Source: Streptosporangiaceae bacterium (GTDB taxonomy: Bacteria; Actinomycetota; Actinomycetes; Streptosporangiales; Streptosporangiaceae). Taken from it: a stretch of 64,000 bases of DNA. The stretch covers positions 1 through 64,000 of the forward strand of contig JAOPYK010000040.1 in NCBI GenBank assembly GCA_025964695.1. Direction: 5' to 3'. Positions 1,471 to 27,564 of the stretch are shown here, piece after piece (the stretch's first letter is position 1; each line of letters starts with the position of its first letter). A program made the position numbers and the translations under genes. Under the pieces are notes generated by a model. That model was not told the origin of the DNA, made no database searches, and saw only the letters and a list, made by a program, of their open reading frames with translations.

Positions 1471-1508
1471 GCTCACGCTCTCTTCTCGCCGGTGCGCTCG
1501 GGATAATG

Positions 1509-1526
1509 AGCTAAATAGATATATGG
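1509..1526. promoter_or_regulatory. AT-rich regulatory island (putative operator of the acyl-CoA island)
   Basis: AGCTAAATAGATATATGG lies between the divergent genes at 1470 and 1630 in otherwise GC-rich DNA. The half AGCTAAA is shared exactly with 23546 and, with one change, with 28916. Function as an operator is inferred from recurrence, not shown. Confidence 0.45.
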
Positions 1527-1629
1527 TATGACTGGCGTCAACACCTCCTGAAACCGGAGGTCGAAGCGGAAATCGGGACCGGAGCCGGTCATGGGGCCGT
1601 CGCCGGTCCGGACTGGTAAGGAGCGTGGG

Positions 1630-1941
1630 ATGAACCTGAAGCCGGGAACGCGGTTGCGCAGCCAGGTCGACACGACGGAGGTGATCGTCGTCCGGCCGCC
1701 GGCCGGGGCGGGGGTCGTCGGCAGCGGCGGTCACCCGATGGTCGGCCTGGACGTGGAGGTCGGCTCGGGCCTGTCGCCTGCCGACGGCGCGGGAGAGGCC
1801 CCGCAGCTCGGCAAGCGTTACACGGCGCCGCACGACGAGGGCCTCGAGGTGCTCGTCACCAAACCCGGTTCGGCCGGTCTCGATCTGGACGGCACCGCGC
1901 TCGTCGTCAAGCAGGCCAAGCCTCTGCCCGCCAGCGACTGA
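1630..1941 (+). CDS. Small conserved-looking protein of unknown function
   Basis: A 103-residue acidic protein. AAGGAGCGTGGG precedes the ATG at 1630 and fixes the start; an in-frame start at 1591 lacks a good ribosome site. The N-terminal half has beta-strand-like stretches (TTEVIVVRPP, HPMVGLDVEV) and the C-terminal half another (GLDLDGTALVVKQAKPLP). No signal peptide, membrane segment or cysteines are seen. Codon use matches the neighbours. I do not recognise the family firmly. It is divergent from the dehydrogenase pair and shares the AT-rich promoter gap with it, so it probably belongs to the same regulon, perhaps as an accessory or binding protein. Confidence 0.7.
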   Translation: MNLKPGTRLRSQVDTTEVIVVRPPAGAGVVGSGGHPMVGLDVEVGSGLSPADGAGEAPQLGKRYTAPHDEGLEVLVTKPGSAGLDLDGTALVVKQAKPLPASD

Positions 1942-2038
1942 GGATCGCCGGCCCCTCTTGTGAGCCATCACTCAGTGAAGTAAATTCAGTTTAATCAGTT
2001 AGCGCTTTCTGAGGATCGAGGGCGCCCGAGGAGGACCC

Positions 2039-3196
2039 ATGCCGTTGCAACCGTGGATGAAGCTGGTCTCTGTCGACGACCACCTCATCGAACACCCCCG
2101 GGTCTGGCACGACCGGCTGTCCGCCGCGGACCGGGAGGCCGGACCACGCATCGTCGAGACGCCGCGCGACGGTCTGCCGTCGATCCAGTCATGGCGGTAC
2201 GAGGGCCGCGACTACCCCTACATCGGGCTCAACGCCGTGGCCGGGAAGCGGCCGGAGGAGTACGGCATCGAGCCGGTGCGATACGACGACATGATCCCGG
2301 GATGCTTCGATCCGAAGGCCCGGCTGGCCGACATGGATCTCGACGGCGTGCACGCCATGCTGTGCTTCCCGTCCTTCCCCCGGTTCGCCGGAGCCATCTT
2401 CCTCGAAGGCGAGGACAAGGGGCTGTCGCTGCGCTGCGTGCAGGCCTACAACGATTTCGTGCTCGACGAGTGGTGCGCCACCGATCCGGCCCGGTTCATC
2501 CCGGTGGTCATCCTGCCGCTGTGGGACGCGAAACTGGCCGCCCAGGAGATCTACCGGACCGCGGCCAAGGGCGCCAAGGCGATCACCTTCCCGGACATGG
2601 TGCACGCACTGGGACTGCCTTCGCTGCACACCGACTACTGGGAGCCGGTGCTGTCGGCGGCCGAGGAGACCGGCATGCCGCTCTGCATGCACTTCGGCAG
2701 CGGTGGATTCCCTCCCCAGATCGCTCCGGAGGCCCCGTTCGCGGTGACGATCACGCTGTTCGGGACGAACTCGATGCACTCCACCGCCGACCTGCTGTTC
2801 TCACCGGTGTTCCACCGGCATCCGAAGCTCAAGGTGGCGCTGTCGGAAGGCGGGATCGGCTGGATCCCCTACTTCCTCGAGCGCTGTGACTACGTCTGGA
2901 AGAAGCACCGCTACTACCAGAACGTCAACCAGGAGGCCGTGCCCTCCGACCTGTTCCGCAAGCACATCTACGGCTGCTTCATCGAGGACGCGTCCGGGGT
3001 GAACAACCGCTACGACATCGGCATCGACAACATCACCTGGGAGTGCGACTACCCGCACTCGGACTCCTTCTGGCCGGAGAGCCGCAAGCGGGCCGCGGAG
3101 GTGCTGGCCGAGGTCCCGGACGAGGAGGCGCACAAGATCGTCGAGCTCAACGCCCGGCGCGTGTACAACTTCCCCGACGTGGTGCCGACGGCCTGA
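2039..3196 (+). CDS. Metal-dependent amidohydrolase (amidohydrolase 2 family)
   Basis: A 385-residue TIM-barrel protein of the amidohydrolase-2 type, whose members hydrolyse or decarboxylate ring and acyl substrates using one bound metal. Visible metal-site motifs are VDDH at residues 12-15, MHFG with His218, SEGG at 269-272 and the strand-8 motif CDYPHSD at 336-342 with Asp337. GGAGGA is just upstream of the ATG. The AT-rich stretch 1974-2003 (AGTAAATTCAGTTTAATC core) is the likely promoter/operator. It opens a plus-strand run of four genes (amidohydrolase, small protein, dehydrogenase, isochorismatase-like). A ring-opening or decarboxylating role within the CoA pathway is inference; the second family member at 24629 has the same strand-8 motif type. 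Confidence 0.88.
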   Translation: MPLQPWMKLVSVDDHLIEHPRVWHDRLSAADREAGPRIVETPRDGLPSIQSWRYEGRDYPYIGLNAVAGKRPEEYGIEPVRYDDMIPGCFDPKARLADMDLDGVHAMLCFPSFPRFAGAIFLEGEDKGLSLRCVQAYNDFVLDEWCATDPARFIPVVILPLWDAKLAAQEIYRTAAKGAKAITFPDMVHALGLPSLHTDYWEPVLSAAEETGMPLCMHFGSGGFPPQIAPEAPFAVTITLFGTNSMHSTADLLFSPVFHRHPKLKVALSEGGIGWIPYFLERCDYVWKKHRYYQNVNQEAVPSDLFRKHIYGCFIEDASGVNNRYDIGIDNITWECDYPHSDSFWPESRKRAAEVLAEVPDEEAHKIVELNARRVYNFPDVVPTA

Positions 3197-3208
3197 GCGG
3201 AGACGGAC

Positions 3209-3436
3209 ATGGCTGAGCCGCGGATCGAGCAGCTTCCGCAGGACGACTGGTTCGATCAGGACCTGCTGACCAGGGACGAGGCGGCGGGCCGCCTGGCCGA
3301 GAAGATCGCTGAGATCACCGGGCGGCTGGCGGAGCTGGGCGAGGCGGGTGGTGCGGTCGACGCAGAGCCGGAGACCGCCGAGCTCCACCGGCGGCTGGCC
3401 GCTCTGCAGAACGCGCACGACGCGCTGGTGAACTGA
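3209..3436 (+). CDS. Small helical protein of unknown function
   Basis: A 75-residue acidic protein that follows the amidohydrolase by 12 bases, with GGAGACGG before its ATG. It begins with a W/D-rich segment (QLPQDDWFDQDLLTR) and is then almost all predicted helix with heptad-like Leu/Ala spacing (AEKIAEITGRLAELGE, then ETAELHRRLAALQNAHDAL), which suggests a short coiled coil. There are no cysteines, signal or membrane segment. Tight spacing in a clear operon and normal codon bias make it a real gene. I do not recognise the family. A partner or stability factor for the amidohydrolase or the following dehydrogenase is possible. Confidence 0.72.
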   Translation: MAEPRIEQLPQDDWFDQDLLTRDEAAGRLAEKIAEITGRLAELGEAGGAVDAEPETAELHRRLAALQNAHDALVN

Positions 3437-3513
3437 CACCGGCCACCCTGACCGGCCCGGCACCGGCCGGGATGAGTTCGCCGAGCCGACATCCCTGGCA
3501 GTCCGGAGGCCGG

Positions 3514-4701
3514 ATGGACTTCACGTTGAGCGACGAGCAGCGGGAGCTGCGGCGGACCGTCCGTTCCTTCCTCGATCGCAGGTCCCCGGAGGCCGAGGTC
3601 CGCCGTCTCATGGCGGATGAAGGCGGCCATGACGCCGCGACCTGGCGGCTGATGGCCGGCCAGCTCGGCCTGCACGGCCTCGCGCTGCCCGAGGAGTACG
3701 GGGGCGGCGGCTGCGGCATGGTAGAGCTCGGCGTGGTCCTCGAGGAGATGGGACGCGCCCTGCTGTGCGGTCCGTTCTTCTCCACGGTGGTGCTCGCGGC
3801 GACCACCCTGCTGTTCGTCGACGACCGGGAGGCTGCCGAGGACCTGCTGCCCGGGATCGCCTCCGGAGAGACGGTGGCGACACTGGCGCTCATCGAGGAC
3901 TCCGGGAGCTGGGACGAGACCGGGATCGCGCTCACGGCCGAGCGGTCGGCCGCCGGGTGGCTGCTGAGTGGCCGGAAGAACTACGTGCCCGATGGGCATC
4001 TGGCCGACGTGATCCTCGTGGCGGCCCGTACCGGCGCCGGGGTGAGCCTGTTCGCCGTGGACGGCGCGGCCGCAGGGCTGACGCGGGAACCGCTGCGGAC
4101 CCTGGACCTGACCCGCAAGCAGGCTCTCCTGGAGTACCGGAGCGTGCCGGCGCGGCTGGTGGGGGAGGAGGGCACGGCCTGGCCGGCCCTGCGGAAGGCC
4201 CTCGACGTCGCCGCGATCGCCCTCGCGGCGGAACAGGTCGGCGGGGCCGCCGCGGTGCTGGACATGGCGGTCGGCCATGCGAAGACGCGCGTGCAGTTCG
4301 GCCGGCCGATCGGTTCATTCCAGGCCATCAAGCACAGGTGCGCCGACATGGTGGTCGCCATCGAGTCCGCGCGGGCCACGGCCCACTACGCCCTGTGGGC
4401 GGCCGCCACGGGCGCCGCCGATCTGCCGCTCGTCGCCGCTACCGCGAAGGCGTACTGCTCACAGGTGTTCACCCGGTGCGCGGAGGCGAACGTGCAGATC
4501 CATGGTGGCATCGGCTTCACGTGGGAGCACCCGGCACATCTGTATCTCAAACGGGCGAAGAGCTCAGAGGTGTTCCTCGGCTCCCCGTCCCGGCACCGTG
4601 AGGCACTGGCGCGGCACGCCGGTTTCCACCCGCACGCAGGGCAGGAGCACCTGCCCACCCCACCCACCACGAACACCCCGAACATCAGGAGCGTCCCTTG
4701 A
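3514..4701 (+). CDS. Acyl-CoA dehydrogenase (FadE family, 395 aa)
   Basis: The ATG at 3514 (MDFTLSDEQRELRRTV, a classic dehydrogenase N-terminus) follows GGAGG by eight bases; the in-frame start at 3472 adds a non-homologous tail. The C-terminal helical domain has RVQFGRPIGSFQAIKH, and VQIHGGIGFTWE, which is the flavin-contacting HGG motif of this family. The end (KRAKSSEVFLGSPSRHRE) lacks the classical GGxxE motif, as in the shorter subunit type of actinobacterial heteromeric dehydrogenases. No partner overlaps it, so it may pair with another island subunit or work alone. The stop overlaps the TTG start of the next gene. Substrate unknown. Confidence 0.9.
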   Translation: MDFTLSDEQRELRRTVRSFLDRRSPEAEVRRLMADEGGHDAATWRLMAGQLGLHGLALPEEYGGGGCGMVELGVVLEEMGRALLCGPFFSTVVLAATTLLFVDDREAAEDLLPGIASGETVATLALIEDSGSWDETGIALTAERSAAGWLLSGRKNYVPDGHLADVILVAARTGAGVSLFAVDGAAAGLTREPLRTLDLTRKQALLEYRSVPARLVGEEGTAWPALRKALDVAAIALAAEQVGGAAAVLDMAVGHAKTRVQFGRPIGSFQAIKHRCADMVVAIESARATAHYALWAAATGAADLPLVAATAKAYCSQVFTRCAEANVQIHGGIGFTWEHPAHLYLKRAKSSEVFLGSPSRHREALARHAGFHPHAGQEHLPTPPTTNTPNIRSVP

Positions 4702-5351
4702 CGATGACACCCGCCGCCTTCGCCGAGCTGGTCGCACCGGCGCACACCGCCGTCCTCACCATGGAGCTGCAACGCGGGATCAGTGGTGATCTGGCCCACC
4801 TGCCAGAGCTGGGGAAGGCCGCACGCGAAAGCGGCGCGATCACGGCGGCCGGGCGGCTCTGCGAGCACGCCAGGCAGGCCGGTGTACGGGTCGTGCACTG
4901 CACGATGGAGCAGCGTCCGGACGGGGCGGGTTACGCGGCCAACGCGCGGCTCCTCGCGATGTGGAACAAGATCCGGACCGAGGCGGGCCGCCGGGGCATC
5001 GAGGCCGGCAGCCCGGAGGCCGAGCTGCTGCCCGAGCTAGCGCAGGCCGAACAGGACATCGTCGTGCCGAGGAGCAGTGGGCTGACGCCGTTCATGCTCA
5101 CCGGGCTGGACCAGATCCTGCGCAATCTGGCAGTCCGCACCGTCGTGGTAGTCGGTGTCTCGGCCAACATCGGGGTGACCGGACTGGTGATCGAGGCGGT
5201 CAACCGCGGTTACGACGTGGTCCTTGCACGTGACGCGGTGGCGGGCGTGCCGGCCGACTACGCCGACTCCGTCATCGACCTCTCGCTCTCGCTGCTCGCC
5301 AGGGTCGTCACGACGGCCGAGGTGGCCGGAGCCTGGCGTTCTGCCCGGTGA
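4698..5351 (+). CDS. Isochorismatase-like hydrolase with replaced catalytic residues
   Basis: A 217-residue alpha/beta protein of the isochorismatase/cysteine-hydrolase superfamily. The TTG at 4698 overlaps the upstream TGA (TTGA) and follows AGGAGCG by five bases; ATG 4704 is an alternative. The fold signature is clear (VVVGVSANIGVTGLVIEA, then GYDVVLARDAVAG). The catalytic triad positions are changed: the usual Asp of the DMQ motif is Glu23 (TMELQ), the usual Lys is Arg125 (VVPRSSG) and the usual Cys is Gly159 (NIGV). A Gly at the Cys position is known in true isochorismatases such as EntB, but the other two changes are unusual. It is either a diverged hydrolase, for instance acting on an enol ether or amide of the pathway, or a non-catalytic member. 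Confidence 0.85.
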   Translation: MTMTPAAFAELVAPAHTAVLTMELQRGISGDLAHLPELGKAARESGAITAAGRLCEHARQAGVRVVHCTMEQRPDGAGYAANARLLAMWNKIRTEAGRRGIEAGSPEAELLPELAQAEQDIVVPRSSGLTPFMLTGLDQILRNLAVRTVVVVGVSANIGVTGLVIEAVNRGYDVVLARDAVAGVPADYADSVIDLSLSLLARVVTTAEVAGAWRSAR

Positions 5352-5364
5352 GCCGCGCCGAGCG

Positions 5365-6171
5365 TCAGTCGAGCAGGTCGAGCACGGTCTTGCCGCCCGC
5401 CGCGTTCACCGCGTCGTCGGCGGCGGTGATGTGCAGTGCCCAGAGCCGCTCGGCCTCGTCGGCCTCGCCCGCCTCGATGAGGTCGACCAGCTTGGCGTGG
5501 GTCCGGTGGGCCTTGCGGGACTGCGCCTTGCGGACGGCGGAGTCCGGATCGGCGGCCAGATGAGAGGCGTTGGCCCGGTCGACGATGTAGCGGAGCATCC
5601 TGCTGAGCAGGATGAGCGTCTGGTTGCCGGACAGCTCGACGAGCAGGGCGTGGAAGGCGTCCTGCGCGTCGACCAGGGTCATCGGGTCGTCCATCGCGGC
5701 CTTCTCGGCCGCGACCGCCTCGCGGAGCCGCGCGATGTCGGCCGCCGTGTGCCCGGCGGCGACCGCACGCACACAGGGCGGCTCGACGACGGCACTGGCA
5801 CGGTAGACGTCGGCCAGGGTCGCGCCGCGGTATTCGAGGATGAGTCCGGCGTAGCGGGCGGCGACGTCTGCGTCGGGCGCGGCGACCCTCGCACCCCCGT
5901 GCGCGCCACGCCTGACGTTGATCAGTCCCTCGGACTCGAGAACCCGGAAGGCCTCGCGCAGCGTCGGCCGGGAGACGCCGAACTGCTCCATCAGCAGTGT
6001 CTCGGACGGAAGCGCGTCGCCTGGCTTCAACTCCCCGCGGATGATCTGACGTCGCAGGGACCGGGAGATGAGCTCGGCGGTCTTGGGCACCCGAAGCTGG
6101 CGGCCCACGCGCAGACGATCCGCGACGGGTGCCACCGCACCCGGGTTCGCAGCCCGTGCCGCCTCCGCCAT
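5365..6171 (-). CDS. FadR-subfamily GntR transcriptional regulator
   Basis: A 268-residue protein with an N-terminal winged helix (ISRSLRRQIIRGELKPGD, LPSETLLMEQFGVSRPTLREAF) and a C-terminal all-helical FCD domain. The FCD domain keeps likely metal/ligand residues in DAQDAFH, RTHAKL and ALHI. The ATG at 6171 follows GGCGAGGAGAA; the frame is open to 6342, but the upstream part is low-complexity and lacks a ribosome site. FCD domains bind small carboxylates or acyl-CoAs, so this is the best candidate master regulator of the island. It is convergent with the isochorismatase-like gene and divergent from the DUF2889 gene; GTAAAAAGTTTAC sits about 100 bases upstream of its start, consistent with autoregulation. 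Confidence 0.92.
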   Translation of the reverse strand: MAEAARAANPGAVAPVADRLRVGRQLRVPKTAELISRSLRRQIIRGELKPGDALPSETLLMEQFGVSRPTLREAFRVLESEGLINVRRGAHGGARVAAPDADVAARYAGLILEYRGATLADVYRASAVVEPPCVRAVAAGHTAADIARLREAVAAEKAAMDDPMTLVDAQDAFHALLVELSGNQTLILLSRMLRYIVDRANASHLAADPDSAVRKAQSRKAHRTHAKLVDLIEAGEADEAERLWALHITAADDAVNAAGGKTVLDLLD

Positions 6172-6271
6172 CGGATTCTCCTCGCCTTTCGTGCTCCCGG
6201 CCGGATTGGCCGCCCGGGGCGTCACCTCGTGGCGGCTCGTCGCGCCGTGAGAGCCGACGGTCACCATTCGC

Positions 6272-6284
6272 GTAAAAAGTTTAC
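6272..6284. promoter_or_regulatory. Palindrome upstream of the GntR gene (putative operator)
   Basis: GTAAAAAGTTTAC has perfect 5-bp arms (GTAAA/TTTAC) around AAG. It lies between the divergent GntR and DUF2889 genes. A second AT island, AAGTTGAATGATATTTCTAT at about 6393-6412, lies nearer the DUF2889 gene. Operator role is inferred. Confidence 0.45.
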
Positions 6285-6435
6285 CAGGTGTGATGTTGCG
6301 TGCTCGGTGACCGATTGTCACACGTCCGGTGAGAGTACTCACACGGCCTCGCCCCTCCCGGATCGCGCGGGGCCTTGCGGCTGGGGAGCATCAAGTTGAA
6401 TGATATTTCTATATGTGCCAAGCAGGGAGGACGTC

Positions 6436-7137
6436 ATGAGCCCGGTGCCGGAAGATCACGTGGCAGGCGCGGGGCGGCGGCCCGCGGATTCGGCGGGCCG
6501 GCCCGTCTATCGCCGCAGTATCGGCGTCGAGTCGGTCATGGCTGATGACGATCACCTTCGCGTCACCGGTCATCTCCGCGACGAGCGGCCGCCCATGGAC
6601 GGGGACGGCCCGGAGCAGCCGATGGTCGTCCATGACATGAGCCTGTCCCTGACGGTGCGGATCGCCGACCTGGTGGTGGTGGACGTCGTCGCCGACATGT
6701 CGGCGTTCCCGCACACCGAGTGCCCGCTCATCACCTCCCGGTTCGCCCATCTGATCGGCGTGCCCGTCCGCCGGGGATTCTCCAGGGAACTGAACCGTCG
6801 GCTGGGCGGCGTGGCGGGCTGTTCTCATCTGGTGGAGATCGCCCGGTCCATCGCGCCCGTGGTGACGCAGAGCATGCTCAGCGGACGGGTGCCGATCCGG
6901 CGTGACCCGGCGGAGCCCGCGGAGCCGTCTCGGCTGCCGGTGGGCAGCTGCCACCTGTGGCAGCCCGACGGTGTCGCGGTGCGCAAGCTGGGCGCCGGAT
7001 GGATCCCGGGCACCGGGCCGCGCCCGGTGCCCCCGCTGCGCGTCTTCACCGCCGGGAAGAGGGCGGGAACGACCACCGGACCCCCCGCGGCGGATCCGGT
7101 CGTGAAGGCCGCCGGGCCGGAACGGCCGACCCCCTGA
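6436..7137 (+). CDS. DUF2889 domain protein
   Basis: A 233-residue protein. GGGAGG precedes the ATG at 6436; the in-frame start at 6400 lies in the AT-rich promoter. The core (VYRRSIGVESVM, RVTGHLRDERP, VVDVVADMSAFPHTECP, and GCSHLVEIARSIAPVVTQ) matches DUF2889, a family found beside acyl-CoA catabolic genes. The C-terminal 45 residues are Pro/Ala/Gly-rich and look disordered. There is no signal peptide. Its biochemical role is unknown; the conserved His/Cys/Glu in GCSHLVE could be a catalytic or metal site. It lies just upstream of the thiolase on the same strand and divergent from the GntR regulator. Confidence 0.8.
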   Translation: MSPVPEDHVAGAGRRPADSAGRPVYRRSIGVESVMADDDHLRVTGHLRDERPPMDGDGPEQPMVVHDMSLSLTVRIADLVVVDVVADMSAFPHTECPLITSRFAHLIGVPVRRGFSRELNRRLGGVAGCSHLVEIARSIAPVVTQSMLSGRVPIRRDPAEPAEPSRLPVGSCHLWQPDGVAVRKLGAGWIPGTGPRPVPPLRVFTAGKRAGTTTGPPAADPVVKAAGPERPTP

Positions 7138-7194
7138 TACCGGGGCGACCGGCCGCGGGCCGGCGTCCACCCACATCGCAGAAGGAAAGTTCCC

Positions 7195-7227
7195 ATGATC
7201 GATCACTCTGGAGCCGGACATGCCTGA
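7195..7227 (+). CDS. Possible 10-residue leader ORF overlapping the thiolase start
   Basis: A very strong ribosome site (AAGGAAAG) precedes an ATG at 7195 that encodes MIDHSGAGHA and stops at 7227, eight bases inside the thiolase gene. The thiolase has its own weaker GGAG six bases before its ATG at 7220. The small frame may simply load ribosomes for coupled translation. No homology can be judged at this length. Confidence 0.3.
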   Translation: MIDHSGAGHA

Positions 7228-8401
7228 TGCCGTCATCGTCGCCGCCTGCAGGACCCCGATCGGCACCGCCTTCAAGGGCACGCTCACCGAGGTGCCCGCC
7301 AGCGAACTGGCCGTCCACGTCATCGAGAACGTGATCAAACGGAGCCAGGTCTCCGTGGACGACTTCGACGACGTCATCCTGGGCGAGTCCATGCAGGGCG
7401 GCGGTGTGATCGCGCGCTACGCCGCGGTCGCGACCGGGCTGCACGGGGTTCCGGGACTGGCCCACAACCGGCACTGCGCCTCCGGGCTGGCCGCGGTGCA
7501 GACCGCCGCCGCGGGCATCCGCGCGGGGATGGACCACGCGGTGATCGCCGGTGGCGCCGAGTCGATCTCCACTGCGCCGCGGGCCCGCCGCCGGACGCCG
7601 GGCACCGACGACTGGGAGGACCCGTGGATGCCGCTCTCCCATCCCGACTCCGCCGAGGCCCCGGCCCTGGACATGTCCGTGACCGTCGGCTGGAACACCG
7701 CGCGGATCGCGGGCGTGTCCCGGGAGGAGATGGACGCCTGGGCCCTCAACAGCCATGCCAAGGCGGTGCGCGCCATCGACGAGGGCCGCTTCGCCGACGA
7801 GATCGTGCCGATCCGCGCGCGCCGCAAGGACGGCGACGACGTGCTGTTCGACACCGACGAGCACCCGCGACGCGGGGGGTCCCTGGAGAAGATGGGCACG
7901 CTGAAGGTGCTGCACCCGGAGATCCCGGGCTTCAGTATCACCGCGGGCAACTCCTCGGGGGTCAACGACGGGGCCGCGGCGGTCGTCGTCACCTCGGACG
8001 AGTTCGCGCGTGCGCACGGCCTGCGCCCGCTCGCGGTCGTGCGTTCGTGGGCGTCCGTCGGGGTCGATCCGGTCCGTACCGGCCTGGCCCCGGTCGAGGC
8101 GATCCCGAAGGCACTGGCGCGGGCGGGTCTCACGGTCGGTGACGTCGATCTGTTCGAGATCAACGAGGCGTTCGCGTCCATGTGCGTGGCCACGACCCGC
8201 GAGCTCGGCCTGGACGCGGACCGGGTGAATGTGAACGGCAGCGGCTGCAGCCTGGGTCACCCCATCGCCGCGACGGGTGCCCGCATGGTGACCACGATGG
8301 TGCACGAACTCGGCCGGCGCGGTGGCGGCATCGGAGTCGTGTCGATGTGCGCCGGTGGCGGCATGGGCTCGGCGCTGGTCCTGGAAGTGGCCGGACGCTG
8401 A
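7220..8401 (+). CDS. Thiolase (acetyl-CoA C-acyltransferase)
   Basis: A 393-residue degradative-type thiolase that cleaves a 3-oxoacyl-CoA with CoA to release acetyl- or propionyl-CoA. The nucleophile Cys86 is in NRHCASGL, NEAF is at 315-318, the catalytic His347 is in GHPIAATGAR, and the second Cys377 is in CAGGGMG. Length is normal for the family. It lies 82 bases downstream of the DUF2889 gene and ends in a hairpin shared with the convergent dehydrogenase. It is the only fully canonical thiolase in the island, so it probably performs the final thiolysis. Exact chain length is unknown. Confidence 0.95.
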   Translation: MPDAVIVAACRTPIGTAFKGTLTEVPASELAVHVIENVIKRSQVSVDDFDDVILGESMQGGGVIARYAAVATGLHGVPGLAHNRHCASGLAAVQTAAAGIRAGMDHAVIAGGAESISTAPRARRRTPGTDDWEDPWMPLSHPDSAEAPALDMSVTVGWNTARIAGVSREEMDAWALNSHAKAVRAIDEGRFADEIVPIRARRKDGDDVLFDTDEHPRRGGSLEKMGTLKVLHPEIPGFSITAGNSSGVNDGAAAVVVTSDEFARAHGLRPLAVVRSWASVGVDPVRTGLAPVEAIPKALARAGLTVGDVDLFEINEAFASMCVATTRELGLDADRVNVNGSGCSLGHPIAATGARMVTTMVHELGRRGGGIGVVSMCAGGGMGSALVLEVAGR

Positions 8402-8408
8402 CCTGAGG

Positions 8409-8440
8409 CCGGGTGGTGGTGTGTCGGCCCCGCCACCCGG
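8409..8440. terminator. Hairpin between convergent genes
   Basis: CCGGGTGG (8409-8416) pairs perfectly with CCACCCGG (8433-8440) across a 16-base loop. It sits between the convergent thiolase and dehydrogenase stops. There is no T-tract, as is common in high-GC actinomycetes. Confidence 0.5.
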
Positions 8441-8466
8441 TCCACCGGAGCCTGCCTGCGGCGTGG

Positions 8467-9705
8467 TCAGCCGGTGCCGGTGGGCGCCGGGGGCTCGCGC
8501 GGGAGGCCGAGGACCGTCTCGGCGATGATGTTGCGCTGCACCTCCGAAGAGCCCGCGTAGATCGTTCCCGCCCGGGCGTTCAAATAGGTGGCGGCCCAGG
8601 ACGCGGTGGAGTCGAACGGCGCGCCGGGGTCGTCCGTACGCATGGAACGCAGCGGGCCACGGCCCTCCAGAACCTGGCCCGAGGGACCGAGGATGTCCAT
8701 CGCCAGTGTGGTGACGTCCTGGTGGTACTCGCTCCAGAACAGCTTGAGGACCGACGATTCGGGACCCGGCGGGTTGCCCTTGAGGTAGTCGGTGAGCACG
8801 CGGTAACCGAGGTGCCGCATGCTCTCGACCCGGCAGTGGCAGTCCGCCAGGCGTTGCCGGATCATCGGGTCGTCGACCGCCCCGCGTGCCCGGGCGAGCG
8901 TGATCAGGCGGTCCAGCTCTGCGCGGAACGCGATCGGCATGGTGGCGGCCTCCTCACCGCGCTCGAAGCCGAGCAGCGACTTGGCGACGTGCCAGCCACC
9001 GTTCACGGGGCCGACCACGTGCCCGGCGGGGGTCCTCGCGTCGTCGAAGAACACCTCGCAGAAATCGTCGTCGCCGTTCATCATCGTGATGGGCCGGACC
9101 TCGACGCCCGGCTGGTCCATGGGGACCAGCAGGAACGAGATCCCGCGGTGCTTGGGAGCGTCCGGATCCGTACGCGCCAGAACGAAGATCCAGTTGGCCC
9201 GGTGGGCCTGTGAGGTCCAGATCTTCTGGCCGTTGACGATCCACTCGTCGCCGCCCCGCACCGCCCTGGTCCGGAGTGCGGCCAGGTCCGAGCCCGCCTC
9301 CGGCTCGGAGAAGCCCTGGCACCAGATGTGCGCGTTGCTCAGGATGCGGGGCAGGAAATACCGACGCTGCTCCTCGGTGCCCCAGCGCAGCAGGGTGTTG
9401 CCCATCATCTTGATGCTGACCATGTCGTTCAGGCCGCCTGCGGGCACCCCGGCGCGCATGAGTTCCTCGACGAGGACGACCTGGTGCAGGTGGGAGAGCC
9501 CCTGCCCGCCGTACTCCACCGGCCAGTTCAGCCCGAGCAGGCCACGGCGGTACAGAGTGGCGCGCCAGGACTCGGAGAAGGCCAGGGCCTCGTCGCGGCC
9601 GGGGATGGCGCCGAGGCCGGACCAGCCCGGGGGAAGCTCTTCGGCGAGCACCCGGCAGACCTGTGCCCGGAAGGCCCCCGCCTCCGGCGGGTAGCTGATG
9701 TCCAT
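8467..9705 (-). CDS. Acyl-CoA dehydrogenase (FadE family, 412 aa)
   Basis: A classical-length dehydrogenase with WPVEYGGQG, the motif QGFSEPEAGSDLAALRTRA, KIWTSQAHRANW, and a C-terminal YAGSSEVQRNIIAETVLGLP that carries the catalytic-type Glu. AAGGAGCGAG precedes the ATG at 9705. It is divergent from the dehydrogenase at 9874; the two share a 168-base promoter gap with the ATAGTTTAACTAT palindrome. The N-terminal half resembles the 292-1470 protein (same SEPE.GSD and QKIWTS spacing), so both may act on related bulky acyl-CoAs. Substrate unknown. Confidence 0.93.
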   Translation of the reverse strand: MDISYPPEAGAFRAQVCRVLAEELPPGWSGLGAIPGRDEALAFSESWRATLYRRGLLGLNWPVEYGGQGLSHLHQVVLVEELMRAGVPAGGLNDMVSIKMMGNTLLRWGTEEQRRYFLPRILSNAHIWCQGFSEPEAGSDLAALRTRAVRGGDEWIVNGQKIWTSQAHRANWIFVLARTDPDAPKHRGISFLLVPMDQPGVEVRPITMMNGDDDFCEVFFDDARTPAGHVVGPVNGGWHVAKSLLGFERGEEAATMPIAFRAELDRLITLARARGAVDDPMIRQRLADCHCRVESMRHLGYRVLTDYLKGNPPGPESSVLKLFWSEYHQDVTTLAMDILGPSGQVLEGRGPLRSMRTDDPGAPFDSTASWAATYLNARAGTIYAGSSEVQRNIIAETVLGLPREPPAPTGTG

Positions 9706-9805
9706 CTCGCTCCTTGCCCGAACGCCTGGCCGTCACGCCGAGCGGAGCCGGTGCTCCGGCCCGTCCGCACGGCACCGACCGCTTGCGTCGAGATCGGATA
9801 GCATA

Positions 9806-9818
9806 ATAGTTTAACTAT
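9806..9818. promoter_or_regulatory. Palindromic AT-rich site between divergent dehydrogenases
   Basis: ATAGTTTAACTAT has perfect 6-bp arms around a central T and lies midway between the starts at 9705 and 9874. The ATAGTTTAA core recurs at 20178, before another divergent pair. Probably an operator for a regulator common to the island. Confidence 0.5.
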
Positions 9819-9873
9819 AAAGACGGATGTTTCCAGCGGCCACCGGGTCTTGGTGGACGGAAGGGTGGACGGC

Positions 9874-11016
9874 ATGCGGCGCGTCATCTTCGAGGATGTG
9901 CATGATCAGTTCCGGGCGACGGCCCGTACGTTCTTCGAGAAGGAGTGCGTTCCGTACACCGATCAGTGGGAACGTGACGGGAAGGTCAGCCGGGAGGCCT
10001 GGCGCAAGGCCGGGCGGCAGGGTCTGCTCGCCTTCGAGGTGCCCGAGGAGTACGGCGGCATGGGCATCCGCGACTTCCGGTTCAACGCCATCGTCTCCGA
10101 GGAGCTGTTCAACACCGGTGCCGTCGGCATCGGCCTCGGCGTGCAGAACGACATCATGCCGTCCTACCTGGTCGACCTGACCACCGAAGAGCAGAAGCGG
10201 CGCTGGCTCCCCGGGCTGGCCAACGGCGACATCGTCACCTCGATCGCCATGTCCGAGCCGGGCGCCGGGTCGGATGTCGCCGGCATCAAGACGACCGCGG
10301 TCCGCAAGGGAGACGGTTATGTCGTCAACGGCGCCAAGACGTTCATCAGCAACGGACTGTTGTCGGACCTGGTGATGGTGGCGGCCAAGACCGATCCGGC
10401 GGCCGGGCACCGCGGCATCAGCCTGATCGCGGTGGAGACCGATACCCCCGGCTTCAAACGCGGCCGCAAACTCGACAAGATCGGCCAGTTCTCGGCGGAC
10501 ACGGCAGAGCTGTTCTTCGACGAGGTCGAGGTGCCCGCCGAGAACCTGGTCGGGGAGGAGAACCGCGGTTTCTATCACATGATGCGCAACCTGCCGAAGG
10601 AGCGGCTGGGCATCGCGGTGTACGCGGTCGCGGCCGCACGGCGTGCGTTCGGGCTGACCATGCGGTACGTCACCGAGCGGGAGGCGTTCGGCCGGCCGAT
10701 CGGCACCTTTCAGGTGAACCGGCACTTCCTCGCCGAGATCAAGACGAAGATCGACGTCGCGCAGACCTACCTCGACCAGTGCATCATGGCGGCCAATGCG
10801 GGAGAGCTCACCGCGCAGGAGGCGGCAGGCTGTAAGTGGTGGACCACCGAGCTGCAGTGGGAGGTGCTGGACCGCTGCCTGCAGCTGCACGGCGGGTACG
10901 GCTACATCAACGAATTCGAGATCGCCCGGCTGTGGCGCGACTCCCGGGTGCAGCGGCTGTACGGCGGGACCACCGAGATCATGAAGGACCTCATCGGCCG
11001 CGACCTGGGTCTGTGA
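9874..11016 (+). CDS. Acyl-CoA dehydrogenase (short/medium-chain type, 380 aa)
   Basis: A classical tetrameric-type dehydrogenase. GGAAGGG precedes the ATG at 9874; the TTG at 9850 in the same frame lacks support. Motifs run in order: EEYGGMG, IAMSEPGAGSDVAGIKTTA, GAKTFISNG, REAFGRPIGTFQVNRHF, LQLHGGYGYINEFEIAR, and RLYGGTTEIMKDLIGRDL with the catalytic Glu. It is closest in style to isovaleryl-/2-methylacyl-CoA and similar short-chain enzymes, so branched or shortened chain oxidation is plausible. The last codons (GRDLGL-stop) appear to be the seed of the tandem repeat that follows. Confidence 0.95.
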   Translation: MRRVIFEDVHDQFRATARTFFEKECVPYTDQWERDGKVSREAWRKAGRQGLLAFEVPEEYGGMGIRDFRFNAIVSEELFNTGAVGIGLGVQNDIMPSYLVDLTTEEQKRRWLPGLANGDIVTSIAMSEPGAGSDVAGIKTTAVRKGDGYVVNGAKTFISNGLLSDLVMVAAKTDPAAGHRGISLIAVETDTPGFKRGRKLDKIGQFSADTAELFFDEVEVPAENLVGEENRGFYHMMRNLPKERLGIAVYAVAAARRAFGLTMRYVTEREAFGRPIGTFQVNRHFLAEIKTKIDVAQTYLDQCIMAANAGELTAQEAAGCKWWTTELQWEVLDRCLQLHGGYGYINEFEIARLWRDSRVQRLYGGTTEIMKDLIGRDLGL

Positions 11017-11150
11017 GGCCGGGACCTGCGTCTGTGAAGCCGGGACCTGGGGGCGGTGAGGCCCGGACGTGGGGCTTTGACGCCCCGGACCTGAGGCTTA
11101 GAGAACCGGGCCTGGGGCTTTGAGGCCCGAGCCTGGGGCTTTGAGGCCGG
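10996..11150. repeat. Imperfect 21-22-bp tandem repeat spanning two gene ends
   Basis: About seven units of the form GAGGCCCGGACCTGGGGCTTT run from the last codons of the dehydrogenase through the gap and into the C-terminal codons of the convergent ligase. The first unit overlaps the dehydrogenase codons for GRDLGL and the stop. In the ligase the repeat encodes the tail GLKAPGSGLKAPGPVL. Unit drift shows it is not recent. Confidence 0.75.
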
Positions 11151-12747
11151 ACGGAGCTGCGGCCCGGGCGAACTGCGCGCGCAGATCCGCCTTGCGTACC
11201 TTCATGCTCGCGTTGCGCGGCAGTTCCGCAACCAGGTGCACGTGTCGCGGGACCTTGTAATTGGCCATGTGCTCCCTGGCCCACGCGATGAGGTCCGCCG
11301 CTCGCACGTCCTGGCCGGCGGCGGGCACGACGAACGCCGCGCCCACTTCGCCGAGACGGTCATCGGGCACGCCGATGACGGCGACGTCCGCCACCGCCTC
11401 GTACCGGAGCAGCAGGCGCTCGATCTCGGCCGGGTAGGCGTTGAAGCCGCCGGCGATGAACATGTCCTTCTTGCGGTCGGTGATCCGCAGGAAGCCGCGC
11501 TCGTTGAGCGTCCCGATGTCGCCGGTGTGCAGCCAGCCGTCGGCGTCGATCACCTCGGCCGTCGCCTCCGGGTCCTCCCAGTAGCCCCGCATCACGACAT
11601 AACCCCGGACCAGGACCTCACCCGCCTCTCCGGGGGAGACCGGCCCGCCCTCCTCGTCGATCAGCGTCACCTCGACGTCCTGCGCCGGCCTGCCGACCGA
11701 GTTGGCGATGTCCTCCGGGTCGTCCTCCGGCCGGCAGGTGCTGACCATCGAGGTCGCCTCGGTGAGCCCGTACGCGGTGAGGACGACGTCGAATCCGAGG
11801 TCGTCGTGCAGCCGGTGCACCAGTTCGACCGGCACGACGGCGGCGGAGGGCACGGTGAAGCGCAGTGAGGACAGGTCGTGGTCGCCGCGTCGCGGATGCC
11901 GCATCAGGTCGTTGAAGAGCGTGGGCGGGCCGAGCAGCACGGTGACCCGCTCCCGCTCGATGCGCCCGAGCACCTCGTCGACGTCGAAGATCCGCTGCGG
12001 GATCACGGTGACGCCGTGCATGAGGCTCGCCATCCAGCCGGCCTTGTACCCGAAGGTGTGGAAGAACGGCGGGATCACCAAATAACGGTCGCCGAGGGCG
12101 AAGCCGAAGACGGCCGAGAGGTAACCGTGGGCGCGCAGCGACTGCGCGTGCGTCAGCATCACGCCCTTGGGGGCTCCGGTCGTCCCCGAGGTGAACATGA
12201 TGTCCGACAGATCGTCGCCCGTGATGGCGTCGATCCGCTCGATCGCGGTCGTCTCCGGCACCAGGACACCGGCGGCCAGGTGATCGTCCCAGGAGACGGC
12301 TCCCTCGGGGACGGCGCCCAGCGCGCACACCGTGTGCAACTCCTTCGCCAGGTCAGGTTCGCCCGACCGCAGCATCCTGAGGTGGTCCATGCCGAGGAAG
12401 TCGGTGCCGGCGATCAGCATCCGGGCGCCGCTCTTGCGCAGCACGTACGCGGCCTCCTCCGCCTTGAACCGGGTGTTGAGCGGCACCAGGACCCCACCGG
12501 CGCCGAGCACGCCGAGCGCAGCGATGATCCACTCGGCGCTGTTGGGCAGCCAGATCCCCACCCGGTCCCCGGGCCGCACCCCGGCCGCGATGGCGGCCCG
12601 CACAGAACGGACCATCTCGGCCTCCAGTTCGGCGAACGTCCACCGCCGGCCGGAGTCCGGATCGACCAGCGACTCCCGGTCGGAGAGCCGCCGGCCGTTC
12701 ACGCGCAGTACGCCGGGGATGCTGCGGAATTCGAGGTCATAGCGCAT
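11098..12747 (-). CDS. AMP-forming acyl-CoA ligase (FadD3-like family)
   Basis: A 549-residue adenylating enzyme that activates a carboxylic acid to its CoA thioester. The P-loop FTSGTTGAPKGVM, the AYGLTEAT motif, WLHTGDIG, the hinge region RKKDMFIAGGFNAYPAEIE and the late lysine region NASMKVRKADL are all present in order. The final 16 residues (two GLKAPG units and PVL) are encoded by the 21-bp tandem repeat and are not part of the fold. The ATG at 12747 is close behind the gene at 13599 in a minus-strand operon. It probably activates the pathway's starting or intermediate acid; in steroid degraders related enzymes activate the propanoate-bearing ring remnant, but that substrate is not implied here. 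Confidence 0.92.
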   Translation of the reverse strand: MRYDLEFRSIPGVLRVNGRRLSDRESLVDPDSGRRWTFAELEAEMVRSVRAAIAAGVRPGDRVGIWLPNSAEWIIAALGVLGAGGVLVPLNTRFKAEEAAYVLRKSGARMLIAGTDFLGMDHLRMLRSGEPDLAKELHTVCALGAVPEGAVSWDDHLAAGVLVPETTAIERIDAITGDDLSDIMFTSGTTGAPKGVMLTHAQSLRAHGYLSAVFGFALGDRYLVIPPFFHTFGYKAGWMASLMHGVTVIPQRIFDVDEVLGRIERERVTVLLGPPTLFNDLMRHPRRGDHDLSSLRFTVPSAAVVPVELVHRLHDDLGFDVVLTAYGLTEATSMVSTCRPEDDPEDIANSVGRPAQDVEVTLIDEEGGPVSPGEAGEVLVRGYVVMRGYWEDPEATAEVIDADGWLHTGDIGTLNERGFLRITDRKKDMFIAGGFNAYPAEIERLLLRYEAVADVAVIGVPDDRLGEVGAAFVVPAAGQDVRAADLIAWAREHMANYKVPRHVHLVAELPRNASMKVRKADLRAQFARAAAPSGLKAPGSGLKAPGPVL

Positions 12748-12786
12748 GACGGCACTCCTTGCTGGATCCGGGAACGATTGCGGTGC

Positions 12787-13599
12787 TCAGCCGTCCCGCT
12801 GTGCCGCGGCCTTCTCCGACGCCGCCTGCTTCATGCCTTCCAGGCCGATCATCGCGGGGAAGTCGAGCTCGCTGTACCAGTGGCCGTGGCCGGTCTCATG
12901 CACGTCGAAGACCGCCTGCAGCGCGGTCTGGAAACCCTGCACGTCCAGGGTCTGGTTGACCGCCCGCTTGGCCTGCCGGAGCGCGAACGGATGCTTCTGG
13001 GCGATCTCCTCGGCCAGCGCGAGCGTCTCGTCCTGCAGCCTGTCGAGCGGGACGACCCGGTTGACCATGCCGATCCGCTCGGCGTCCTCGGCGGTGACCC
13101 GGCGGCCGGTGAACAGTAGTTCCTTTGCCCTGCGGGCGCCCAGCTCCCAGGTGTGGCCGTGGTACTCGACCCCGCCGATGCCCATGTTGATCACCGGGTC
13201 GGAGAAGTACGCGTTGTCCGCGGCGATGATCAGGTCGCACGGCCAGCAGAGCATCAGGCCCGCCGCGATGCAGGCGCCCTGCACGGCGGCGATCGTCGGC
13301 TTCGGCACGTTGCGCCACCTGAGCGAGTAGCCGAGATACCTGCGGGCCTCGTTGCCGTACATTTCGGCCAGGGTGGGGGGCGCGCTGTCGGCCCCCGACA
13401 GGTCGTGCCCGGCGGAGAAGTGCTTCCCGTTGGCGTTCAGCACGATGACGCGGACCTCGTCGTCGTTCTCCGCGCGGGTCCAGGCGGCGTCGAGCGCGTC
13501 CAGAAAGGCGAACGACTGCGCGTTGGCCGCCTCGGGCCGGTTGAGCGTGATCACCGCGACGGCGCCGGAGGTCCGGTACAGGATCGGGTCGGTGGACAC
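12787..13599 (-). CDS. Enoyl-CoA hydratase/isomerase (crotonase family)
   Basis: A 270-residue crotonase. GTG at 13599 follows AAGGAAGAGGAAC; the open frame upstream is not homologous. The oxyanion motif KHFSAGHDLSG and the second motif GACIAAGLMLCWPCDLIIAAD are clear. The region normally carrying the second catalytic Glu reads DPVINMGIGGVEYHGHTWE, which differs from the canonical PE...P..GG, so it may be an isomerase, a hydrolase or a hydratase with shifted acid. It shares strand and spacing (39 bases) with the ligase gene. Confidence 0.9.
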   Translation of the reverse strand: MSTDPILYRTSGAVAVITLNRPEAANAQSFAFLDALDAAWTRAENDDEVRVIVLNANGKHFSAGHDLSGADSAPPTLAEMYGNEARRYLGYSLRWRNVPKPTIAAVQGACIAAGLMLCWPCDLIIAADNAYFSDPVINMGIGGVEYHGHTWELGARRAKELLFTGRRVTAEDAERIGMVNRVVPLDRLQDETLALAEEIAQKHPFALRQAKRAVNQTLDVQGFQTALQAVFDVHETGHGHWYSELDFPAMIGLEGMKQAASEKAAAQRDG

Positions 13600-13657
13600 A
13601 GGGTTCCTCTTCCTTGGTCGCTGGATGAAGGTCTCGTACGCTCGGGCGTCCCGCGCC

Positions 13658-14884
13658 TCAGCCGCTCCGGCTGAGGAGCATGCAGCCCGCCACCGGACCG
13701 CCTCCGGCCGCCACCGCCGCCACGGCGGGTTCCCCGGCGACCTGCCGCTCGCCGGCCTGTCCCCACAGCTGGACACAGGCCTCGTGCAGCAGCCCGACCC
13801 CGTGCAGCCGGCCACCGGAGAGCTGTCCGCCGTTGGTGTTGAGTGGGAGCTCGCCGGAGCGTGAGATGCGCTCGCCGTCTTCGACGAAGTGCCCGGCCTG
13901 ACCCTGCTCGCAGAAGCCGAGCGCCTCCAGCCACTGCAGGGTCAGGTAGCTGAAGCCGTCGTACAGCTCGGCGATGTCCACGTCAGCGGGCCGCAGCGAG
14001 GTCCGCTCCCACAGCGTGTGCGCGGCGTCGTGGGCGGCCATCGTCGTCAGGTCCGCCCGCTGGTCCCAGGTGGACCGCTGGTACATGCCCGTGCCGACCG
14101 ACTCGACCGTGAGCGGGGCCTGCGGCAGGCCCGCCGTCGCGTCACGCCGTGAGATGACGACCGCGGTGGCCCCGTCGCAGGGCACATCGCAGTCGTACAG
14201 GCAGAACGGGGTCGAGATCATCCGCGAGCCGAGGTAGTCCTCGAGCGTGAGCGGCGTGCGGTAGACGGCGTTGGGGTTGAGCGCCGCGTTGCGACGGGCG
14301 TTCAGCGGCACCTGCGCCAGCTGCTCCCTGGTCAGCCCGTACTCGTACATGTAGCGCTGCGCCATCATGCTCAGCCAGTTCGCGGCCGATATCGCCCCGA
14401 AGGGTGCGAACCACTCGTACGGGCCGTCCGCCCTGCCCTGGCCCTGCGAACCGCCCGCCAGGACTCCGGCCCGGCCGCGGTTCTGCTGGGCGGTGGACTC
14501 CCACACGGAGCGGAAGCACACCACGTGATCGGCCAGGCCGGTCGCCACCGCCAGGCACGCGTCGGCCAGCGGCCCCAGCTGGCCGGCGGTCTCGAGCGCC
14601 CCGAGAAACCAGCGCGCCCGGATGCCGAGGCCGCCGATCACGTCGTACGCCCCGCCGCCGGTGAATCCCGGGTCCGGAACGGTGGCGCCCGGATACGTCG
14701 CGACGCCGTCGATGTCGGCCGGTGTCAGACCCGCGTGCTCGATGGCCCGTAGACAGGCGTCCAGGGTCAGTTCCAGCCCGTCGCGGCCCAGCCGGCGGCC
14801 CACCTTGGACTGGCCGACTCCGCTGATGACCGCGCGGCCCGCGAGGGGGTTCACCGGTTCACCGGACGGAACAGGGGCAGCCAT
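13658..14884 (-). CDS. SCP2-type thiolase-fold protein, Ltp2-like lyase candidate
   Basis: A 408-residue thiolase-fold protein. GGGAGGACGT precedes the ATG at 14884. The segment where thiolases carry the nucleophilic Cys reads ALETAGQLGPLADA, with no Cys, while the C-terminal LPLNTNGGQLSGGRLHG is typical of the non-thiolytic branch. Such proteins, with a partner DUF35 protein, act as retro-aldol lyases in steroid side-chain degradation (Ltp2 with the DUF35 domain of ChsH2). The adjacent, overlapping DUF35 gene (34-base overlap) supports this. Expected reaction: cleavage of a beta-hydroxyacyl-CoA to a ketone or aldehyde plus a short acyl-CoA. Confidence 0.85.
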   Translation of the reverse strand: MAAPVPSGEPVNPLAGRAVISGVGQSKVGRRLGRDGLELTLDACLRAIEHAGLTPADIDGVATYPGATVPDPGFTGGGAYDVIGGLGIRARWFLGALETAGQLGPLADACLAVATGLADHVVCFRSVWESTAQQNRGRAGVLAGGSQGQGRADGPYEWFAPFGAISAANWLSMMAQRYMYEYGLTREQLAQVPLNARRNAALNPNAVYRTPLTLEDYLGSRMISTPFCLYDCDVPCDGATAVVISRRDATAGLPQAPLTVESVGTGMYQRSTWDQRADLTTMAAHDAAHTLWERTSLRPADVDIAELYDGFSYLTLQWLEALGFCEQGQAGHFVEDGERISRSGELPLNTNGGQLSGGRLHGVGLLHEACVQLWGQAGERQVAGEPAVAAVAAGGGPVAGCMLLSRSG

Positions 14885-15315
14885 ACGTCCTCCCAATGCT
14901 CGAATATGACTTCCACCGGCATGCCGATCTCGACCTGGTCGGGCTCGCAGCCGACGATGTTGCTGGTCAGCCGGACGCCCGGCTCCTCCTCGATCTCCAC
15001 GATGCCCACGACGTAGGGGGGCGGGAATCCGGGCAGCCACTGCTGGTGGTTCACCGTGAACGTCACGAGGGTGGCGCGACCGGACACCGGCTCGGCCCCG
15101 ACGTCGAAGCTCTGACAGCGGAAGCAGATGGGACTCGGGGGATGGAAGAAGTGCCCGCAGGAGTGACAGCGGTGGATCCGCAGCTCGTCCTTCTCGCCTC
15201 CGGTCCAGAAGTCCCGGGTCAGCGGCTTGACGGCCGGCAGCATGCGGGACTCGGGTCTGGCCGGGGACGGCGGCGAGCCGCCCTCGCCGGATGGGCTCGG
15301 GGTGGTGTTCAACAA
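14851..15315 (-). CDS. Zn-ribbon OB-fold protein (DUF35 family)
   Basis: A 154-residue protein with an N-terminal rubredoxin-like zinc ribbon (Cys50, Cys53, Cys64, Cys67 in CHSCGHFFHPP and ICFRC) followed by a C-terminal OB fold (TLVTFTVNHQQWLPGFPPPY, GMPVEVIFEHWEDVWLPLFRP). The start is TTG at 15315 (or the next TTG), placed by AAGGAGGT; ATG for MLPAVK about 25 codons on is the alternative. It overlaps the following thiolase-fold gene, and the two probably form one complex in which this protein binds the CoA tail. A second zinc-ribbon/OB module is fused within the 18816-20063 protein. Confidence 0.88.
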   Translation of the reverse strand: MLNTTPSPSGEGGSPPSPARPESRMLPAVKPLTRDFWTGGEKDELRIHRCHSCGHFFHPPSPICFRCQSFDVGAEPVSGRATLVTFTVNHQQWLPGFPPPYVVGIVEIEEEPGVRLTSNIVGCEPDQVEIGMPVEVIFEHWEDVWLPLFRPVNR

Positions 15316-25889: not shown

Positions 25890-26085
25890 TTCATCATGCC
25901 GAAGGGGGAGCGTGCCGATCTGAGCGGGCGGGCGGGACGGCGGTGGCCGTTCGCGGGAGTCGGCCGCCGAGTAACCTGCCAGAAACATTGTGGCGACCTC
26001 CCCGTGGTGTTAGCGTCCAAAACGGTGCCCTGGCTGGGCGAACGCTTTCGCACGTTGGATGATCGGTTACCGGCGGGTGGTGAGG

Positions 26086-27564
26086 ATGAGCGCCTCCGAA
26101 GCGTGGAACCGCATGCGCGGCCTCGACTGGGGGATCGCCACGGCCGACAACATCGGTGCCCCTGCGCTGACGCCGGGCGAGCGCACGGCGTCCATACGAG
26201 GCGTCTGCGCGCCGGTGTCCGGCCACGCCGACCGGTGGGCCCGTGACCTGCGAGAGGTCGTCGGCGTCACGCCGGTCGCCCACCGGGCCATCGTCGGCTG
26301 GCCCTATCTGCAGCCCGATGGGCCGGGCGGCTGGGATCGGGCCGCGCTCGATCGCTGTGACCGCGCGCTGGACGCCAGGCTCGCCGCCGGCCTGCGCCCG
26401 AGCCTGACGCTGCTGCACATGGACCTGCCGGCCTGGCTGGATGACGAGGGCGGCTGGCTCCTACGGGAGACCGCGCTGCGCTTCGCCGACTTCGCGGCCG
26501 AACTGGGGCGCCGTTTCGGGGACCGGGTGAACCGCTGGATCACCTTCACCGATCTGGCGGCACCCTCCCTGGCCGACCGCGTCGCGGGAATACGGCCGCC
26601 CGGCCGGGGCATCGGCGCCGCGGGGCTGCCGGCGGTGCACCACGTGCTGCTGGCGCACGGGCTCGCGGTACGAGCACTGCGTGATGCGGCGGTGTACGGA
26701 AAGATCGGGAGTGCCCTGCCGCTCATCGGCTCCTACGCCGCCACCGGCGACCCCTGGGACCGGATCGCACTGGAAAGCTTCGAGTCCTGGACGCTGCGGC
26801 TGTTCCTGGACCCGCTGCTGCTCAGCGAGCACATGACGCAGGACGACGGCACCTCGCCGGTGGCGGAGTCTGGCTGTGTGCGGCCCGGTGACATGGAGAT
26901 CATCGGGGGGCCCCAGGACTTTCTCGGCTTCACCTGGGCCGGGTCCTGCCGGATCGCGGCTCCGGAGAACCTGGCGAGGGTGCTGCCCGCGATGGGCTGC
27001 TTCGGGGCGTTGAACGACGTCAACCGGTTGCTCGTCCGGCTCGGTTTCACGATCGTCCCATTCGACGAGGTTCCGACCTCGTCCAATGGCTGGCCCATCG
27101 TTCCCGAAGCGCTGGCCGACGCGGTGGCCGCGGCCCGGGACCTCTACGGTGACCTGCTGCCGCCGCTCTACATCACCGACAGCGGCATCGGTGAGCTGGA
27201 CACCGCGGGGCCGCCCGGGCAGATCACCGAGCGGCGTCGCGCACTGCTGGCCGCCAGGCTGACCTGGCTGTCCGACGTCATGGCGGAGGGCGTGGACGTG
27301 CGCGGCTACGAGTACTGGTCCGTCATGGACAACCTGGAGTGGCAGCTGCGTTACTACCGCCTCTACGGGATCGCCGTTCCCGACCGGGAGCCGGTGACCC
27401 AGCCGCCGATCCCGTGCGACTGGATCGGCGCCGGCACATTCGACCAGCCGCGTCCGGCGGCGTCCGTCACCACGACCGCCACGACCGCAACCACGACGGA
27501 CCCGGCCGACGTCGCGGCGGCCGCCGGCAAGCCGGGCACGGTCCGGCTGCTGAGGCGCGACTGA
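26086..27564 (+). CDS. GH1-like (family 1 glycosidase) protein with both catalytic Glu replaced
   Basis: A protein of about 492 residues with the whole GH1 barrel recognisable: WGIATADN at the start, a TFNEP-like segment TFTDL, FLGFTWAG, GWPIVPEAL, YITDSG, and the late GYEYWSVMDNLEWQLRYYRLYGI. The acid/base Glu of TFNEP is Asp (residue about 156) and the nucleophile Glu of ITENG is Asp (about 365). Normal beta-glycosidase activity is therefore doubtful. The C-terminus is a Thr/Ala-rich disordered tail. Start is uncertain: ATG 26086 has GGTGG upstream, ATG 26059 has no site. It lies inside the acyl-CoA island between an amidohydrolase and a CoA-transferase; its role is unknown. Confidence 0.8.
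   Translation: MSASEAWNRMRGLDWGIATADNIGAPALTPGERTASIRGVCAPVSGHADRWARDLREVVGVTPVAHRAIVGWPYLQPDGPGGWDRAALDRCDRALDARLAAGLRPSLTLLHMDLPAWLDDEGGWLLRETALRFADFAAELGRRFGDRVNRWITFTDLAAPSLADRVAGIRPPGRGIGAAGLPAVHHVLLAHGLAVRALRDAAVYGKIGSALPLIGSYAATGDPWDRIALESFESWTLRLFLDPLLLSEHMTQDDGTSPVAESGCVRPGDMEIIGGPQDFLGFTWAGSCRIAAPENLARVLPAMGCFGALNDVNRLLVRLGFTIVPFDEVPTSSNGWPIVPEALADAVAAARDLYGDLLPPLYITDSGIGELDTAGPPGQITERRRALLAARLTWLSDVMAEGVDVRGYEYWSVMDNLEWQLRYYRLYGIAVPDREPVTQPPIPCDWIGAGTFDQPRPAASVTTTATTATTTDPADVAAAAGKPGTVRLLRRD

Follow-up and report, generated by a model that had tools for sequence, protein, structure and literature searches.

The DNA analysed here, a stretch of 64,000 nucleotides from a Streptosporangiaceae bacterium that is referred to as the window, carries an open reading frame at 26086..27564 on the forward strand, which encodes a GH1-like protein of 492 amino acids. 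An alternative in-frame ATG is possible at 26059; the start at 26086 is backed by relatives. The original prediction had placed the gene in a CoA catabolic island, and acyl-CoA gene families do flank it in the window, the island spanning the region from the start of the window to about 39 kb. The divergent upstream neighbour, an amidohydrolase gene (Amidohydro_2, PF04909; 24629..25846, reverse strand), is present in the sister species too and is preceded by genes for a crotonase/enoyl-CoA hydratase (PF00378; 23630..24415, forward), an adjacent pair of acyl-CoA dehydrogenases (PF00441, PF02770, PF02771; 21217..23462, reverse), a ChsH2-type OB-fold protein (PF01796, PF12172; 18816-20063, reverse) and a thiolase (PF22691; 17659-18816, reverse). 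Downstream lie a CaiB/BaiF CoA-transferase (PF02515; 27652..28884, reverse), an acyl-CoA ligase (PF00501; 28955..30454, reverse) with a 78% identical relative in a Streptomyces plasmid island, and an F420-dependent LLM oxidoreductase (PF00296, above the cut-off of TIGR03619; 30564..31475, forward). The rest of the island (292..15040) comprises acyl-CoA dehydrogenases, thiolases, a GntR regulator, an acyl-CoA ligase and a crotonase.

The NCBIfam matches of most of these neighbours stay below equivalog cut-offs, as does that of one further acyl-CoA dehydrogenase of the island, whose best relative is IpdE2. Taken together, the dehydrogenase pair, the IpdE2-like dehydrogenase, the ChsH2-type OB-fold protein beside a thiolase, the crotonases and the CaiB transferase suggest that the island may serve to degrade an isoprenoid/steroid-like acid with a branched or cyclic structure. 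At its N-terminus, the ChsH2-type protein is extended by about 290 residues that lack a Pfam match and appear thiolase/HMG-CoA-synthase-like by eye, possibly representing a fusion. The regulators of the island are of the GntR and TetR types. Relatives of the GntR regulator (5365-6342, reverse), up to 69-74% identical, occur in most islands compared, and its binding site might reveal the regulon of the island and its inducer.

Relationship to glycoside hydrolase family 1

The 492-residue protein matches the Pfam family Glyco_hydro_1 (PF00232) over residues 47-433 with 183.6 bits (6.2e-54), far above the curated cut-off of 22.6, and is therefore a GH1 member by descent at the family level. The score against TIGR03356, the GH1 beta-glucosidase equivalog, is 217.3 bits and lies below the cut-off of 478.5. 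HMMER alignment to solved beta-glucosidases places T153-F-T-D156-L on the acid/base motif TFNEP (codon of Asp156 at 26551..26553, forward strand) and I363-T-D365-S-G on the nucleophile motif ITENG (codon of Asp365 at 27178..27180, forward), so that the replacement of both catalytic Glu residues, as originally proposed, is borne out. Four other GH1 genes of the same genome (498-542 bits) have kept Glu at both positions.

Profile searches identified relatives that share the derived residues, giving 22 members from the genus of the window, one other genus of the same family and Streptomyces. They include an independent MAG of the sister species (L006/L008; 92% identity to the window protein), one genome of the other genus (L009; 51-53% identity), 16 of 296 Streptomyces genomes, two further Streptomyces carriers in the class sample (G534 and G569) and one 539-kb Streptomyces plasmid. 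The Asp pair is present in the sister MAG, in the relative with 51-53% identity and in 17 Streptomyces genomes. No further members were found by profile search among 396 genomes of the phylum sample, in which two other matches reached 273-276 bits, the level of ordinary GH1s; the 65 genomes of the genus of G252 held no carrier besides G252, and a profile scan of genome contigs recovered the sister MAG alone. In the profile searches, the members score at least 540 bits, and ordinary GH1s among the matches listed score about 300 or less. In a tree with 31 ordinary actinobacterial GH1s, four of which stem from the genome of the window, the 22 members form one clade (SH-aLRT 100) whose stem measures 1.33 changes per column; the inner branches of L009 and L058 are long, and the placement of both within the clade is accordingly unsure. 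Genes of this clade are automatically annotated as 'family 1 glycosylhydrolase'. Neither of the two Glu residues that close strand 4 (acid/base, NEP) and strand 7 (nucleophile, TENG) is present in the clade and, judged by its sequence, the protein encoded at 26086-27564 is a GH1 protein by descent that does not qualify as a GH1 glycosidase by catalytic criteria.

Since both catalytic residues deviate from the family, local decay or a sequencing error in a single genome had to be considered. The open reading frames are, however, intact, the 22 members share derived residues, and Ka/Ks ratios according to Nei-Gojobori amount to 0.27 for the window gene and its sister, 0.20-0.26 for five Streptomyces pairs and 0.12 for the near-identical L057/L059; one ordinary GH1 pair, with 0.26, lies in the range of 0.20-0.27. 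The clade is thus under purifying selection, which argues against decay. None of the 22 members carries the normal Glu residues, which the original prediction had named as the sign of a local decay. The shared derived residues of the orthologues and the Ka/Ks ratios rule out local decay, the occurrence of the same change in independent genomes rules out chance or assembly error, and the probability left to this explanation is negligible.

Genomic context of the clade

Within 10 kb of the gene, 12 of 14 loci possess 7-13 genes of acyl-CoA families, compared to 0-2 in 20 control stretches of 20 kb (four around ordinary GH1s of the same genome as the window, 16 arbitrary Streptomyces stretches). 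The 12 CoA-rich loci do not amount to 12 independent events, as many Streptomyces loci have one common arrangement; three distinct island arrangements can be discerned, that of the window, that of the plasmid and G902, and the one common in Streptomyces. The annotated Streptomyces plasmid island matches that of the window in type. The exceptions are the divergent carriers G252 and G928 with one and no CoA-family gene within 10 kb, respectively, where more CoA-type, SDR or LLM-like ORFs, some of them named by reading the N-terminus, lie about 2-18 kb off. At the locus of the most divergent relative (L073-L074; G928:C1 3439000-3477900), ORFs that appear related to phosphonate metabolism by eye are situated a few kb away. 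We observed that the 539-kb linear Streptomyces plasmid (L059; NZ_CP107787.1 59181-96512) and the 10-Mb contig C1 of another Streptomyces genome, G902 (230000-268900), harbour one and the same island, with 96-100% identity between corresponding genes, suggesting that this island may move between replicons.

Predicted structure and active site

An AlphaFold2 model of the window protein, based on a 42-row alignment, has a mean pLDDT of 78, with values above 90 in much of the barrel and below 50 after residue 413; the model of a Streptomyces orthologue is likewise of low confidence after strand 8. The predicted model shows the (beta/alpha)8 barrel of GH1, with the residues after 413 poorly modelled. 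In enzymes of clan GH-A, the two catalytic Glu residues sit after strand 4 and at the end of strand 7; in the model, strand 4 (150-155) ends at D156 and strand 7 (361-365) at D365, in agreement with the fold and the positions originally predicted. VIA-align superimposed the model on the beta-glucosidase Cba3 with a Z of 35.7 and an rmsd of 2.8 over 363 residues, and beta-Klotho was also among the structural matches of this search, which was accompanied by a Foldseek run. No solved close relative was found in the PDB, the best matches being ordinary beta-glucosidases.

Conservation of the two Asp residues in orthologues differs between the positions. D365 is Asp in all 22 members, within the motifs TDSG, IDNG or VDNG, whereas D156 is Asp in 20 of 22 and Ser in the near-identical L057/L059; all 31 ordinary GH1s have Glu at both sites. 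To judge from the Ser156 sublineage, the Asp pair is not essential family-wide. The original prediction had also held the remainder of the GH1 fold to be intact, which applies to the fold as such; most sugar-binding residues have been lost as well. The glycone-binding set that is invariant in ordinary GH1s, in a BglA-style numbering, with the alignment columns located by motif, is not retained: across the clade, His121 reads H/D, Asn165 T/S/P, Asn293 S/T/L/V, Tyr295 H/A/Y and Trp406 W/A, and the Gln20 motif is missing, as compared with only 8 usable full-length controls. The first active-site loop, which follows strand 1, is shortened by 13 residues in the window protein and by up to 24 in Streptomyces, according to a hand count. 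In turn, residues newly invariant in the clade include E409, W235, E294, N295 and N313, of which W235 takes a position that is mostly Leu in ordinary GH1s. Glu409 (codon at 27310..27312, forward strand), an acidic residue on barrel strand 8 where ordinary GH1s mostly have Phe or Tyr, is Glu in 22 of 22 members and, since it precedes the retained Trp411 on this strand by two residues, is likely to face the barrel interior. The change was therefore understated originally, as it extends to the glycone-binding residues, the first loop and Glu409; the sublineage with Ser156 had been overlooked as well.

These data bear on the question of whether the protein may still be a glycosidase with an unusual Asp/Asp site that deglycosylates a terpenoid or steroid ahead of the CoA pathway. 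Such a role would fit the GH1 descent and the carboxylates at both positions in 20 of 22 members, and a glycosidase upstream of a CoA route would be biologically sensible. However, in retaining glycosidases a change from Glu to Asp at either site lowers the rate by orders of magnitude, one sublineage has Ser instead of Asp156, and Gln20, His121, Asn165, Asn293, Tyr295 and Trp406 are missing or not kept. We regard this function as improbable.

Discussion

The loss of the Glu pair and of most sugar contacts under purifying selection points to a new role rather than that of an ordinary glycosidase, as originally suggested, and the protein was probably co-opted for another task among acyl-CoA breakdown genes. 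In our estimation, the chances are about even that it is a neofunctionalised GH1 barrel, repurposed as a non-glycosidic enzyme of a catabolic route that is linked to CoA and may deal with isoprenoid/steroid-like compounds. The pocket would take a non-sugar compound of the pathway encoded by the island, and Asp365 might act as general base or nucleophile, aided by Glu409 and, in most members, by Asp156. The reaction could be a hydrolysis or elimination such as the opening of a ring or lactone or the cleavage of an ester or enol, and the soybean hydroxyisourate hydrolase, a GH1 barrel acting on a non-glycosidic bond, may serve as precedent for this mode by analogy.

The main rival is a non-catalytic GH1 pseudoenzyme that binds a substrate or product of the island or a partner protein as a sensor, chaperone or scaffold. 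Both Glu residues and most glycone contacts are gone, Asp156 has become Ser in one sublineage, and beta-Klotho is found among the structural matches; Klotho and molluscan GH1 domains are inactive and serve in binding or folding (PMC10628560; PMC10619976), the former holding FGF tails in the former sugar pockets of its GH1 domains. Against such a function, Asp365 is never neutral, an additional Glu409 has become fixed in the barrel, and the gene encodes a lone single-domain protein amid catabolic enzymes. We consider a binding protein rather unlikely and prefer the enzyme hypothesis, given that position 365 is acidic throughout and that the additional Glu has been gained and retained, both residues being present in all members while the sugar contacts drift. 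The occurrence of Ser156, the low confidence of both models from residue 414 onwards, and the paucity of CoA-family genes near G252 and G928 speak against an enzyme, and Asp365 and Glu409 could be structural instead of catalytic. More specifically, it might tentatively be hypothesized that a GH1-barrel enzyme relying on Asp365 and Glu409, and usually Asp156, carries out an unrecognised non-glycosidic step in the CoA-linked isoprenoid/steroid-like catabolism of actinobacteria. If true, this would provide a natural case of a glycosidase barrel shifted to new chemistry, in a family that ranks among the most thoroughly studied of all glycosidases, and the clade may indicate where a degradation pathway still lacks a step. 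A literature search for bacterial GH1 proteins that lack both Glu residues or reside in CoA islands retrieved nothing relevant; published reports may exist.

The nearest solved GH1 proteins are Cba3 (PDB 8znv/8znw) and BglU (3w53). With bacterial GH1 beta-glucosidases of this kind the clade shares the fold, the overall layout, about 31-34% identity and the Trp that precedes SVMDN in strand 8; it differs from them by Asp in place of both Glu residues, the loss of most sugar contacts, the shorter first loop, Glu409 and the CoA island context. In soybean hydroxyisourate hydrolase, a GH1 barrel that no longer has the residues for glucose binding catalyses the hydrolysis of a bond that is not glycosidic (PMC1781453). 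The clade, too, has lost the glucose-binding residues of GH1, but the soybean protein is a plant enzyme from a purine context that has kept Glu in an HENG motif, in contrast to TDSG, IDNG or VDNG in the CoA context of the clade, so that the likeness, being one of analogy, is confined to how the protein may work. Similarly, Klotho, domain 1 of molluscan CjCEL1A and LpMDGH1 are degenerate GH1 domains with roles in binding or folding (PMC10628560; PMC10619976). They resemble the clade in the loss of catalytic or substrate residues but are animal multi-domain proteins, whereas the members of the clade consist of a single bacterial domain in which Asp365 and Glu409 are fixed, and belong to a catabolic island. 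Finally, myrosinases and rice Os4bglu14/Os9bglu33 naturally possess Gln at the position of the acid/base Glu (PMC1781453). The replacement of this residue is a feature in common; in these proteins, replacement of the acid/base residue alone has been described, while both positions are changed in the clade.
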